DNA of 64,000 nt from Richelia intracellularis HH01 (GTDB lineage Bacteria > Cyanobacteriota > Cyanobacteriia > Cyanobacteriales > Nostocaceae). Shown piece after piece: positions 6,965 to 39,530 of this stretch. A program made the position numbers and the translations under genes. Within the stretch, counting starts at the first letter, position 1. Each line of letters begins with the position of its first letter. The notes under the pieces were generated by a model. The model was not told the DNA's origin. It made no database searches and saw only the letters and a list, made by a program, of their open reading frames with translations. Where the stretch lies: contig NZ_CAIY01000038.1 of the NCBI RefSeq assembly GCF_000350105.1, forward strand, positions 1 to 64,000. Direction: 5' to 3'.

Positions 6965-8339
6965 TTAAAATACTAAATTCCTGCTTATACTTGTATCAAT
7001 AAATTCCTGTTCCCCTTTCCTAATAACTGAAACTGTAACTTCGCGAGGTGAAGAAATCCATTTCCCTTGCCTGGATAGAATCTTCACTACGACTTTTCCT
7101 CTTTATTGAAATGCCTGATAGTTAGTAATTGCATAAATACCTTATCGATAGGCAAAAGAAACACCATCCTATTCATATAGGATAAATTTTCCTATCCCAG
7201 GGGTAACTAAGAATCTTATTTTACCCACTGAGAAATTGCCCACATATTGCATCAATGGATCCTTAAAGAATACATATAGGCATTCTTTATAGAGGGGTAT
7301 CCGCTAAAATTTACCTTCCTTCTATGTAGCTTTCCCCTGTCCAGCAATTATTATACTAAGTACCTACTGGGAGATAAACTGAGCGATATCCTACCCCAGG
7401 ACGATAAATTGATGCAGCCATTTAGAGATGAGCCCAAAATAATTTGATCATATAATTCGTGAGTTTAAGAACCTCTGAATTAATTGTATAGTATGGGCTT
7501 TAAGGTGAGGTGGGGTCATCTGTGTTTACTAGTAACCAAAATAAATTATAGAGATAGAACAGTATACTGATGACAAATTCTTTCCACCTCAATCCCAAAA
7601 AACTATGGTTAATGGGGTTTGTTATGAATCATCTGTTACTGATACTAACTCAATGTCTACAGTGGAGGCATATCTCCTAAGCCTGTGAGTTGGGTATAAG
7701 TACAAGTAATATATGCAAGTTCTTCACCATAGATAATATAGTAATCTAACTCACTACTGTAGGTATTCATTTGCAAGACATCTGTAATTAACTTCAGGTG
7801 AGATGAATTTTAGAAAAGGAATTGCCTGATACATCTCATCTGTTAATACGGTAGTAGCAATCTGTTGTCTAATGGGTATAGCATTTTCCCCTATCATTTG
7901 GACTTCCTAACCTTCCTTAAAAACCCTAGAACTTTTCCCTTAGTTGAATTTTCTTCTAAGTAGTAGTTTGTTCTACTCGTCAGCCAATATCCATACCTGT
8001 ATCTGCAGTAAAGATATGGCCAAACTTGTCAAAATATATCTTGCAGGGATGCGTTTGTAATCGCACTCCTACCCTTGCAGTAGTTATAGTTACAGGTTTT
8101 TCTATTACTTCCACCTCAAAGGGTGCGACTTTCCATTGTTTATCATCTAAAGTTATAGCTCAGGAACGGTATAGAGTAGAATACATAACCACTGGGGGAA
8201 AACGCATACGTACAAATTGTCAGTTAATTATATTTATATGCAATATACCATCACCACATCTAAAATCTATACTTTACCTTCCTTCACAAATTTGATTTAC
8301 TGATAAAATAGTATGTTATCTAGTTTCATATTTTTTCAT
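6965..8339 (-). pseudogene. Glycoside hydrolase family 31 (alpha-glucosidase) pseudogene
   Basis: Reading the reverse strand in shifting frames recovers a GH31 protein in correct order. First comes an N-terminal beta-domain: DDKQWKVAPFEVEV and VGVRLQTHPCKIYF, then DKFGHIFTADTG. Next are LTDEMYQAIPFL, then ELDYYIIYGEELAYI and CTYTQLTG. Last are YRSVYLPVGT with a ..NCWTGESY.. stretch, ILADTPL, and a C-terminal YAITNYQAF region with PREVTVSV. Several in-frame stops and frameshifts interrupt it. Only about 230 bp separate the CTYTQLTG block from the YRSVYLPVGT block, where the catalytic barrel should need much more, so the active-site core has been deleted. Intact GH31 enzymes hydrolyse terminal alpha-glucosides; the activity is lost here. 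The family call rests on remembered motif order; boundaries are approximate. Confidence 0.8.
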
Positions 8340-34896: not shown

Positions 34897-35385
34897 ATGA
34901 ATAATTCTCTTATTTTGTTTAGTGATCATAAATCAGAGATTGATCTTCACCAATTACAAAAGCTTTTTGATGTATCAGCTTTCTGGGCACAAGACCGCAG
35001 TTTAGAAGATCTCAACATTGCTATTAATAATAGCAACCCCGTAATTACAGTTTGGGATCAACAAAAACTGATTGGTTTTGCTAGGGCAATATCCGATGGT
35101 ATCTATCGTGCTACTATTTGGGATGTGATAATTCACCCGGAATATCAAGGTAGTGGTTTAGGAAGTAAATTAGTGGAAACAGTTATAAGCCACCCCTGTA
35201 TACATCGGGTGGAAAGAATATATTTGATGACAACTCATCAACAACGTTTCTATCAACGTATCGGATTTCAACTGAATTCCACAAGCACCATGGTTTTATA
35301 TAACCAATCTAATTCATCCTCTCTGACGGTTGGGGGGATGCAGTTGAAACAAGCCCTTGGGGAATCGAAACCTGTAATCTTGTAA
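34897..35385 (+). CDS. GNAT acetyltransferase, Ycf52-like
   Basis: A 162-residue N-acetyltransferase. The acetyl-CoA fold is visible: KLIGFARAISDGIYRATIWD, VIIHPEYQGSGLGSKLV (the QGxGLG pyrophosphate loop) and QRFYQRIGFQ. It resembles the second GNAT gene at 39853-40380 over most of its length, so the two are paralogues; that family includes plastid-encoded Ycf52. Its last 77 bp overlap the 3' end of the kinase gene on the opposite strand, and the C-terminal residues after about 140 look non-conserved, so the stop may have drifted. Substrate unknown. Confidence 0.8.
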   Translation: MNNSLILFSDHKSEIDLHQLQKLFDVSAFWAQDRSLEDLNIAINNSNPVITVWDQQKLIGFARAISDGIYRATIWDVIIHPEYQGSGLGSKLVETVISHPCIHRVERIYLMTTHQQRFYQRIGFQLNSTSTMVLYNQSNSSSLTVGGMQLKQALGESKPVIL

Positions 35386-36966: not shown

Positions 36967-37878
36967 CTATCTCTTTATTTGGGCAACAGCAAAACGTTCA
37001 ATTCCAGCCAAATCAGTATGGATATGGATATTATCATAGCTACCTTGCCGTTCTAATAATTTTTTAACCATATCAGCTTGTCCAGCCATAATTTCCAATA
37101 ACCACAAACCTCCTGGACATAAATATCTGGGGGATAAATTTATCAAGTGGAGAATACAATCCAAGCCGAACTCTCCCCCATCCAAAGCTAAATGGGGTTC
37201 ATGCTGTCTAACCTCTGGTTGTAAATTTGGCAGCATCCCAACAGGGATATAAGGGGGGTTAGAAACCATTCCACTGAATTGGCCTTTAAGTAATTCCAAG
37301 GGTTGCCACCAATAACCTTCATAAAATTTGACTATATGAGCAAAACCATATTTCTCGGCATTCTGCTGTGCGATTACCAAAGCATCACTAGAGCAGTCCA
37401 CGGCATGAATAATAGCATTGGGAAAAGCGTCAGCTAGCCCCAATGCTATTGCACCACTGCCCGTCCCCAAATCAGCCCAATGCCCTTGATTTAAATTTAA
37501 ATCCTCCTTAGTATACTGAGTTGCTTCTATTGCCAAATCAATCAAAATTTCAGTTTCCGGTCTGGGAATTAACACCCTAGTAGAAACTATTAGTTCAAAT
37601 TGCCTCCAAGATGTAATTCCAGCAATATACTGTACTGGCAGACGTTCTGTGATTCGTCTTTGCCACATTACTTCTAAATCCTTAAAGGGAAATTTTAAGA
37701 CAATTTTTGGCCATTCTTTGAAATAATCTAAACAGATTGATAACCGATCTAAACTAGCTACTTTTAGTAATAACCAGTCAACCTCTCTAGGGGAAATATT
37801 AGACGCGACCGCAGCTTCAATCGCTTTGTTTCGCCAATGCCAAAGTTCCAAACCGGAAACGAAAAACTGCTTTTCCAC
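36967..37878 (-). CDS. prmC: Peptide chain release factor N5-glutamine methyltransferase
   Basis: Methylates the GGQ glutamine of RF1/RF2 with S-adenosylmethionine. The 303-residue protein has the helical N-terminal domain (about 1-85), a PVQYIAGITSWRQFEL linker, RVLIPRPETE, the SAM motif DLGTGSGAIALGLA and the catalytic NPPY (VSNPPYIPVG). Typical length and complete motifs. Separated by 6 bp from the broken tic22 upstream and 56 bp from tsaC downstream, so likely co-transcribed with both. Confidence 0.92.
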   Translation of the reverse strand: MEKQFFVSGLELWHWRNKAIEAAVASNISPREVDWLLLKVASLDRLSICLDYFKEWPKIVLKFPFKDLEVMWQRRITERLPVQYIAGITSWRQFELIVSTRVLIPRPETEILIDLAIEATQYTKEDLNLNQGHWADLGTGSGAIALGLADAFPNAIIHAVDCSSDALVIAQQNAEKYGFAHIVKFYEGYWWQPLELLKGQFSGMVSNPPYIPVGMLPNLQPEVRQHEPHLALDGGEFGLDCILHLINLSPRYLCPGGLWLLEIMAGQADMVKKLLERQGSYDNIHIHTDLAGIERFAVAQIKR

Positions 37879-37884
37879 TATGTA

Positions 37885-38678
37885 TTAACCCTTTGGCTTA
37901 AGAAGTTTATGATTACTATCCTTTGTTTTCTGCATCTGACTAAAAAATTGTAAACTGTCAGAAGATGGGACTAAAAATACTTGGCTTAACCACGAATCAT
38001 TCCTCTTGTACAACACATTGAGTACCCCATCGATATCGCCTACCTCCAATTTAGCTTTGGGATATTTTTTCTTCACTTGTTTTAATAGATTTTGGGCATC
38101 TTTCTTACTAAAGTACAATGGAATGATTTCATCCTGATTTGGCCCCCTTTTTATTGATATATATCCCTTGCCTTCTGCACTGATCATAAATAGAGGTACA
38201 CTAATGAATTTATCAATTTTCCTACCCTGCTGCTTTAGCAAAGCGAGCGCACCTTTAATCTCTTCTTGTCCTGGTTGAAAAGCAAACTTCAAACCATTGG
38301 GGTGTTTGGCACTTTCACGAGACTTTTTGTGGATGTCTCCCAATCCCACAGTTGTTATCCTTAGTTCATTTATCATTGCTGCAATTTTAGGAGCTTGTTT
38401 TTTTGTTGCTGCAATTTACTGATAAAGGATTGAGCTTCTCTAATACTCATAAATACTTGGGTGTAGGATAAACTTGACTTTCCATCTTTATCTGATAAAC
38501 GGCGAGTTAATGGCAAACCATTACTATTGGTAATTAAAAAACATGGCGTGTTATTTAATTTTTTGACTACCTCGGATTCTGATAATGCTAGCAATGGGGC
38601 AATATCAATTAGTATAGATGTTATTAGAGTCGTTCCTAATAAGCCTAATTTCATACCCCAATAAACCAATGATCTCAT
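37885..38678 (-). pseudogene. tic22: Tic22-family protein, frameshifted at an A-run
   Basis: In cyanobacteria Tic22 is a periplasmic/thylakoid-associated chaperone for outer-membrane biogenesis. Here it is two reading frames: residues 1-101 from ATG 38678 (AGGAGT upstream; signal peptide MRSLVYWGMKLGLLG...LLALS, then CFLITNSNGLPLTRRL), and 37885-38376 with the rest (INELRITTVGLGDI, KFAFQPGQEEIKGALALL, KAKLEVGDIDGVLNVLY). The first ends in TGA overlapping the ATG of the second. Reverse-strand A7 (plus-strand T7, 38398-38404) is the break: one more A joins them through QAPKIAAM. Both halves stay conserved and otherwise free of stops, so it is a fresh mutation, a sequencing error, or a slippage-rescued gene. 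Confidence 0.8.
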
Positions 38679-39530
38679 AACGACTCCTAGCATTAAATAC
38701 TTATTAATTGAGCAAGGTAATTTCCTGAATTATATATGTATGTCACACAAGAGTTGTAATTCAGTGTATCTTTTTCTTACGACTAAGAAAACTTTGTATT
38801 AGCTTTTAACGTTCAAACATACTTCTGCTTAAATACAAGGTCATTTAATAATAACTGGAAGCATTTTATTGAGTATGTACTCTTATAAATAAAAACAAAC
38901 AATGCTTTTCTAGTCTTTTCTTTATTCTAAAATATTCAAATCTAAAAAAGAATAATACAGTGGCCATGATTCTGATAATTATGGCAGGATTATTATTCCA
39001 TTTATTTTGATCTAATTTATCATGAAAACTAATTAATCTAATACCACTACAAGAAGTTCAGATTAAATTTAAGTATTTTGAGGAACTCATCTAAAGGGGA
39101 ATAATTAATATATCCAATTACTTAATAATATTGACATATATCAATAGTTATTGCAGTCATGGAGAAGAATATAGCTATTCACTCAAAGAATAGCTATATA
39201 AATAATTGTTATTCTAGGGATAATCACCAGGCAAGATGGTAGAATTGTAGAGGCAAATATTACGGATTTAAGTAAATATCGATATAGATAGTAAAGAATC
39301 TAAAATACCGGAAAATAACCTGTATCAATTGTATTTAGGTTGGCTACTTACCCTCCTAGGCTAATATGACTTGCAAATACCAAAAAATAATTTCAGTTAA
39401 ATCTCTTAACTGAAATTATTTTTTAGAAATTCTCCAATTCACACAAATGTTCAAGTTCATTTAGGATTAAAGATCCAATTAAAGACAAAAACCTAGATAT
39501 TATTTGCAAAATCTAGGGTAAGAGTATATA
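38679..39530. other. Gene-free stretch between tic22 and tRNA-Pro
   Basis: No gene supported. Contains a 12-bp perfect hairpin (39169-39180/39188-39199) and the long terminator-like hairpin 39382-39424. Confidence 0.5.
39382..39424 (-). terminator. Strong hairpin, likely tRNA-Pro terminator
   Basis: Perfect 19-bp arms (39382-39400 and 39406-39424) with loop ATCTC; the stem base is A6/T6, so it can act as an intrinsic terminator on either strand. It lies 107 bp beyond the 3' end of tRNA-Pro on the reverse strand. Confidence 0.7.

Follow-up and report, generated by a model that had tools for sequence, protein, structure and literature searches.

In Richelia intracellularis HH01, probably a diatom symbiont, the gene for the Tic22 protein is laid out as two minus-strand open reading frames (ORFs) in adjacent frames that meet in an ATGA overlap. 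The question considered here is whether this tic22 gene is broken in the organism, read across the break, or whole in the cell and one base short in the assembly. The window analyzed is a stretch of 64,000 nucleotides of contig NZ_CAIY01000038.1; the genome has a size of ~3.24 Mb, according to the part of the literature that describes it (PMC8969518), and a literature search returned no paper treating tic22 together with Richelia. The split is really there in the sequence, and the best account of it is an ordinary one: most likely a slip in sequencing or a one-base assembly error, or else a very recent break. Of the readings weighed below, a base missing from the draft ranks first, somewhat short of an even chance; a recent real deletion ranks second, at about one chance in three; and a deletion that is bypassed ranks third, as unlikely.

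The split gene and the place of the missing base

Both ORFs belong to the Tic22 family. They match consecutive parts of the Pfam profile PF04278 (positions 46-109 and 116-242 of 244), scoring 24.9 and 40.5 bits as ORFs against the curated cut-off of 23, and 22.2 bits (N-half, just below the cut-off) and 39.9 bits (C-half) in a six-frame search of the genome; they also align to Anabaena Tic22 (PDB 4ev1), the N-half to chain residues 2-72 and the C-half to residues 75-225. The two halves are the only Tic22 matches in the assembly (3.24 Mb in 90 contigs, rated 89% complete). Among 39 relatives a Tic22 match is present in 38, the exception being G028, and each of the 38 matches is without internal stop.

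The earlier note had described a tic22 gene in two adjacent-frame halves joined by a TGA/ATG overlap, with a run of seven T on the forward strand, no further stop in either half and a frame that one added base at the junction would restore. The ORFs together with the Pfam and 4ev1 matches bear out this arrangement, the run lies exactly where it had been placed (Table 1), and tic22 shows a single lesion over 809 bases, with both halves otherwise open. A second ATG in the N-half, at 38678, fits the start used by several relatives and is the likely start. The gene downstream encodes a methyltransferase, which we take to be PrmC-like; a gene with a similar N-terminus also follows tic22 in the genus-mate G001 and in the Calothrix MAGs L036 and L037.

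Table 1. Features of the tic22 locus and of other broken genes in the surveyed part of the assembly.
Feature	Position	Strand	Basis or remark
N-half of tic22	38373..38693	-	106 aa; signal-peptide-like segment (by eye) and first part of Tic22 domain
N-half stop, TGA	38375-38373	-	ORF reading
C-half of tic22	37885..38376	-	163 aa; -1 frame; no signal peptide by eye
ATGA stop/start overlap	38373..38376	-	C-half ATG (38376-38374) on N-half TGA; would permit reinitiation
A7 run, coding strand	38398..38404	-	T7 on forward strand, exact; length equal in intact G001 gene
Slippery heptamer A_AAA_AAC	38397..38403	-	-1, in frame; sequence fits X_XXY_YYZ
Missing base by alignment	38396..38397	-	C expected between; AAC CAA in G001, AAC-AA in window
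Methyltransferase gene downstream of tic22	36967..37878	-	ORF and Pfam
Decayed glycosyl hydrolase family 31 (GH31) gene	window 6968-8072	-	several frames
coxA-like gene (COX1, Cytochrome c oxidase subunit I)	contig 53, ~91002-91184 and 89497-91071; L039:5497-7184	-	T7
YdcF/DUF218	contig 3, 19854-20426 and 20405-20662; L130:405-662	+	A7 or near
Peptidase C39/ABC exporter	L124:4204-6872	-	last part in other frame after T7
mreC	contig 11, 19790-20586	-	one base missing; near A6
lpxD in pieces	contig 11, 13260-14161; L115	-	frame breaks and internal loss (by reading)
Bcp-like peroxiredoxin	L126:1477-2038	+	apparent 4-base tandem duplication
HAD hydrolase fragment	L124:1789-2198	-	one-base frame change

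The lesion was placed by a four-way alignment of the window, G001, L036 and L037; the genus is represented by two genomes, that of the window and G001. The tic22 gene of G001 is intact and 78% identical to the window gene. At the junction G001 reads GAAAAAAACCAAG and the window CAAAAAAACAAG, and the two Calothrix MAGs read CAAAAAACCCAAG. The A-run is seven bases long in both Richelia-genus genomes, and the alignment gap is one C of the CC that follows the run, not an A. A split tic22 was seen in no second genome; G001, L036 and L037 read through in one frame, and no sister strain was found among viral contigs.

The residue column at the lesion can be read against these alternatives. Among the 18 of 20 relatives that have a letter there, Gly occurs six times, Glu three, Asn, Thr and Ser twice each, and Lys, Asp and Ile once each; a restored C gives Asn, seen in two of the 18 (G001 and L022), and a run of eight A gives Lys, seen in one. 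A single event, loss of C, would explain the window sequence, and an origin by shortening of A8 to A7 would take two steps, a C-to-A change followed by loss of one A. The C reading is favored because G001 has A7, the gap falls on C and the residue column has Asn in two relatives against Lys in one. The A8 reading is still a possible one, because errors and slippage in runs are commoner than loss of a base from CC. The earlier note had described the lesion as A8 shortened to A7, which as stated is unsupported: the intact G001 gene has A7 and the gap falls on the following C, so that by alignment the lesion does not lie within a long A/T run.

Constraint on the two halves and other broken genes

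Selection on the halves was estimated as dN/dS by a Nei-Gojobori-type count against G001 and compared with 15 other ORFs of the window, which range from 0.10 to 0.36. The C-half has a dN/dS of 0.07, lower than all 15, at a dS of 1.6 that is near saturation; the N-half has 0.26 without the signal segment, inside the range of the other ORFs, and 0.37 with it. Both halves are thus under purifying selection, the whole N-half at the upper edge. Changes were also polarised with L036 as outgroup, altered codons being counted against changed bases, so that the shares are approximate. On the window branch 42 of 106 changes in tic22 are protein-altering (N-half 18 of 41, C-half 24 of 65), compared with 117 of 334 in five neighbor ORFs (Fisher p 0.42), one of which (34897-35385) has a distant outgroup copy and gives a poor share. 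The tic22 share is far from the neutral 0.75 (p 1e-14), and a rough mixture estimate puts the neutral (unconstrained) part of the window branch at 5%, at most 18%. The gene has one lesion and neighbor-like constraint, not the several lesions or relaxed constraint of a pseudogene. Because constraint on the branch is like that of the neighbors, the break is either young, or bypassed, or no real break; selection on tic22 therefore either stayed near normal until recently or is near normal to this day.

Other genes of the assembly bear on the choice among these. The survey covered 679 kb (21% of 3.24 Mb; G+C 33.9%), with six contigs of < 1.7 kb omitted, and its scan for frame shifts is blind to genes whose only damage is a stop codon, and these are uncounted. 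On contig 53, G001 proteins match at 50 places (at least 80 bits and at least 45% identity), 45 of them in one frame, two partial and three in several frames; these three are tic22, a coxA-like gene and the GH31 remnant, a gene of which G001 has a 682 aa copy. Besides tic22, four otherwise-open genes in the 679 kb are one base short (the coxA-like gene, YdcF/DUF218, the peptidase/ABC exporter and mreC), and in all five the frame change corresponds to the loss of one base. At the coxA-like site the relatives (n = 2) have T4-C-T3, which fits loss of the C, or a C-to-T change followed by loss of a T. The two YdcF/DUF218 pieces both match PF02698, in consecutive parts; the gap lies 3' of the A7 run against G001 and before the run against two more distant genomes. 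A split of mreC at A6 was considered and rejected when alignment against G001 moved the lesion to an A4/G site. The joins of the coxA-like, ABC, mreC, bcp-like and HAD splits were made by sequence reading, DNA alignment also being used for coxA-like, YdcF and mreC, and the short pieces of the first five gave no Pfam family match. So tic22 is one of a small class here, otherwise-open genes from which a single base is missing within or next to low-complexity sequence.

A possible missing base in the draft, or a possible recent deletion

An omission of one base from the draft beside the homopolymer is, with some reserve, the explanation given most weight, in which the living tic22 is whole and an ordinary exported Tic22 is made. 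The assembled sequence would be one base short at the 3' edge of A7 in a normal single-copy gene; the base, absent from the assembly, would be present in the organism, and the living gene would probably be whole and yield an exported Tic22, a periplasmic shuttle for outer-membrane proteins. This reading is drawn from the single lesion, the intact orthologues, the neighbor-like constraint and the other one-base-short genes of the assembly. If it holds, gene-loss lists compiled from this draft may contain false losses, among envelope or respiration genes for example.

Against a draft error stand the A/T runs with flanking coding sequence that were scored as in frame on both strands of these 679 kb (86 of length 7, seven of length 8 and one of length 9), from which it follows that run errors are not rife in the assembly. 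The base lost by alignment is moreover a C beside the run, as the mreC lesion is also outside its longer run, and the dN/dS of the whole N-half lies slightly above the top of the other ORFs. The sequencing platform of strain HH01 was, we assume, pyrosequencing. The scan flagged 10 runs of at least 7 in this genome, which by eye comprise four split genes (tic22, coxA-like, YdcF/DUF218 and the peptidase/ABC exporter) and six cases of neighbors, antisense or non-coding sequence; at runs of at least 5 there are 55 flags in all, read by eye only. In favor of a draft error, 66 runs of at least 7 are in frame and four are flagged in two near-closed genomes of the family (400 kb), with no clear gene split by eye, a contrast that rests on numbers too small to be firm. 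In G001, which is also a draft, 12 frame changes are flagged at runs of at least 6, and at least one of these, transposase-like, looks split.

The lengths of the runs were considered separately. A/T runs of at least 10 are absent from the 679 kb, where the trend predicts 16 at length 10; the near-closed G014 has no run longer than 9, with 2.7 expected at length 10, the near-closed G018 has three runs of 10 against 5.5 expected, and the run lengths of G001 are nearer to the trend. Assembly-wide shortening of runs was rejected as a simple cause, since G014 and G018 are also short of long runs; the lack of long runs is thus no mark of artefact.

A very recent one-base deletion that inactivated tic22, of a C from CC or of an A from a prior A8, would make the gene a nascent pseudogene in the course of envelope-gene loss, and it is possible, though less probable than the missing base. 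Loss of the C is one step. Real gene loss is to be expected here, because the genome has truly decayed genes (the GH31 remnant, lpxD in pieces) and the apparent four-base gain of the bcp-like gene; no lpxD match over the family cut-off was found in the 89%-complete assembly, from which 11% may be absent, and with lpxD in pieces the symbiont may have lost normal lipid A synthesis. The genes lpxD, mreC and tic22 are all envelope genes, and protein changes in tic22 lean slightly to the window branch (42:10 over the two branches, compared with 117:48 in the neighbors, p 0.21). Against inactivation, constraint on the branch is not significantly relaxed, the Anabaena orthologue is described, in the passages on its function, as essential for development (PMC3652856), and an insertion in the Anabaena gene is described as impairing both the envelope and growth (PMC9705863). 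The earlier note had named artefact and recent inactivation as alternatives to rescue, and was right to do so. A real deletion would mean that loss of an outer-membrane biogenesis factor has been caught at its very start in an intracellular cyanobacterium, and would bear on the simplification of symbiont envelopes.

Possible bypass of the lesion, and known systems

A real deletion could also be bypassed, so that some full-length exported protein is made; this is judged unlikely, and two routes can be proposed. Ribosomes would slip -1 at 38403-38397 and read the C twice, giving ...KNQAPKIAAM, the peptide expected from relatives, or RNA polymerase would extend the run by an A, with ...KKQAPK as the product. 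The slip site stands at the lesion with frame and direction right for bypass, constraint is retained on the window branch, and a structure model of low confidence (mean pLDDT 45) places the lesion between two helices. Parts of one study describe how indels are bypassed within repeats of 3-8 bases, and also where they adjoin repeats and lie between conserved motifs (PMC3812077), which counts against doubting slippage at A7, and chloroplast recoding at an oligoA tract is described in the relevant part of another (PMC8254509).

The heptamer, however, need not have evolved for bypass, because A_AAA_AAC occurs in the intact gene of G001 as well, and in frame three times among the 45 intact genes of contig 53. 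No stable structure lies downstream: a fold of 109 nt, in which pseudoknots are outside the coverage, has a z of +0.76, and a fold equally good or better was reached by 158 of 200 shuffles; nor was an SD-like stimulator seen by eye. Programmed -1 ribosomal frameshifting is accordingly unsupported, being without downstream structure and in an arrangement that G001, L036 and L037 do not conserve. A7 is also short for transcriptional slippage. In the passages on slippage in Blochmannia vafer the tracts named are of at least 9, with 11 As in visC (PMC3017870); a transplastomic A8 tract is judged insufficient in the part of the chloroplast study concerned with it (PMC8254509); and a transcript survey of E. 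coli and Buchnera reports no frame-restoring transcription error in its text on the subject (PMC5574713). The rescue by slippage at A7 that the earlier note put forward thus finds no support, the run being short and its length shared with the intact G001 gene, and the split was not found in a second genome.

A wider form of the same idea is more doubtful still. It holds that the deletion is real, that tic22 and the coxA-like, YdcF and ABC exporter genes are kept functional through slippage at A/T runs of 7 bases, that one-base losses are tolerated genome-wide in a photosynthetic nitrogen-fixing endosymbiont, and that tic22 would yield its ancestral peptide via -1 frameshifting. Bypass, if it occurs, would add a diatom symbiont to the insect symbionts and the chloroplast in which slippage rescue is known.

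The ATGA overlap is present, and the two halves might be translated separately through reinitiation and function together as a split Tic22, which is very improbable. The cut falls close to where two weakly similar parts meet (phmmer, C-half part against 4ev1 residues 9-70, 3.6 bits, not significant). The C-half, however, would stay in the cytoplasm, because only the N-half has a signal-peptide-like segment, and Anabaena Tic22 is located in periplasm and thylakoids, as the localization passages report (PMC3652856). The Met at the overlap is also a residue already in the G001 and MAG proteins (AAMIK).

Among known systems, the frameshifted conserved poly(A) genes of Blochmannia and Buchnera, as far as their published description extends (PMC3017870), resemble tic22 in being found in a reduced AT-rich symbiont, with a single run lesion and no clear rate increase; unlike them, tic22 has a run of 7, a lesion that alignment puts outside the run and no sister that shares it, and is known from DNA alone. 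Frameshift correction of chloroplast atpB in Oenothera/tobacco shares with tic22 a cyanobacterial descent and an oligoA at the lesion, but in the part of the study that presents it atpB has protein evidence and a predicted downstream stem-loop (PMC8254509), whereas tic22 is a case read from DNA, with no stable structure. The Tic22 of Anabaena sp. PCC 7120 (Alr0114) is like the Richelia protein in family and in the alignment of both halves. It differs in that the Richelia gene is one base short between the two parts. Draft assemblies carry homopolymer indel errors, and tic22 is like these errors in its single missing base beside a run, in affecting a conserved gene and in being one of several such cases in the assembly.
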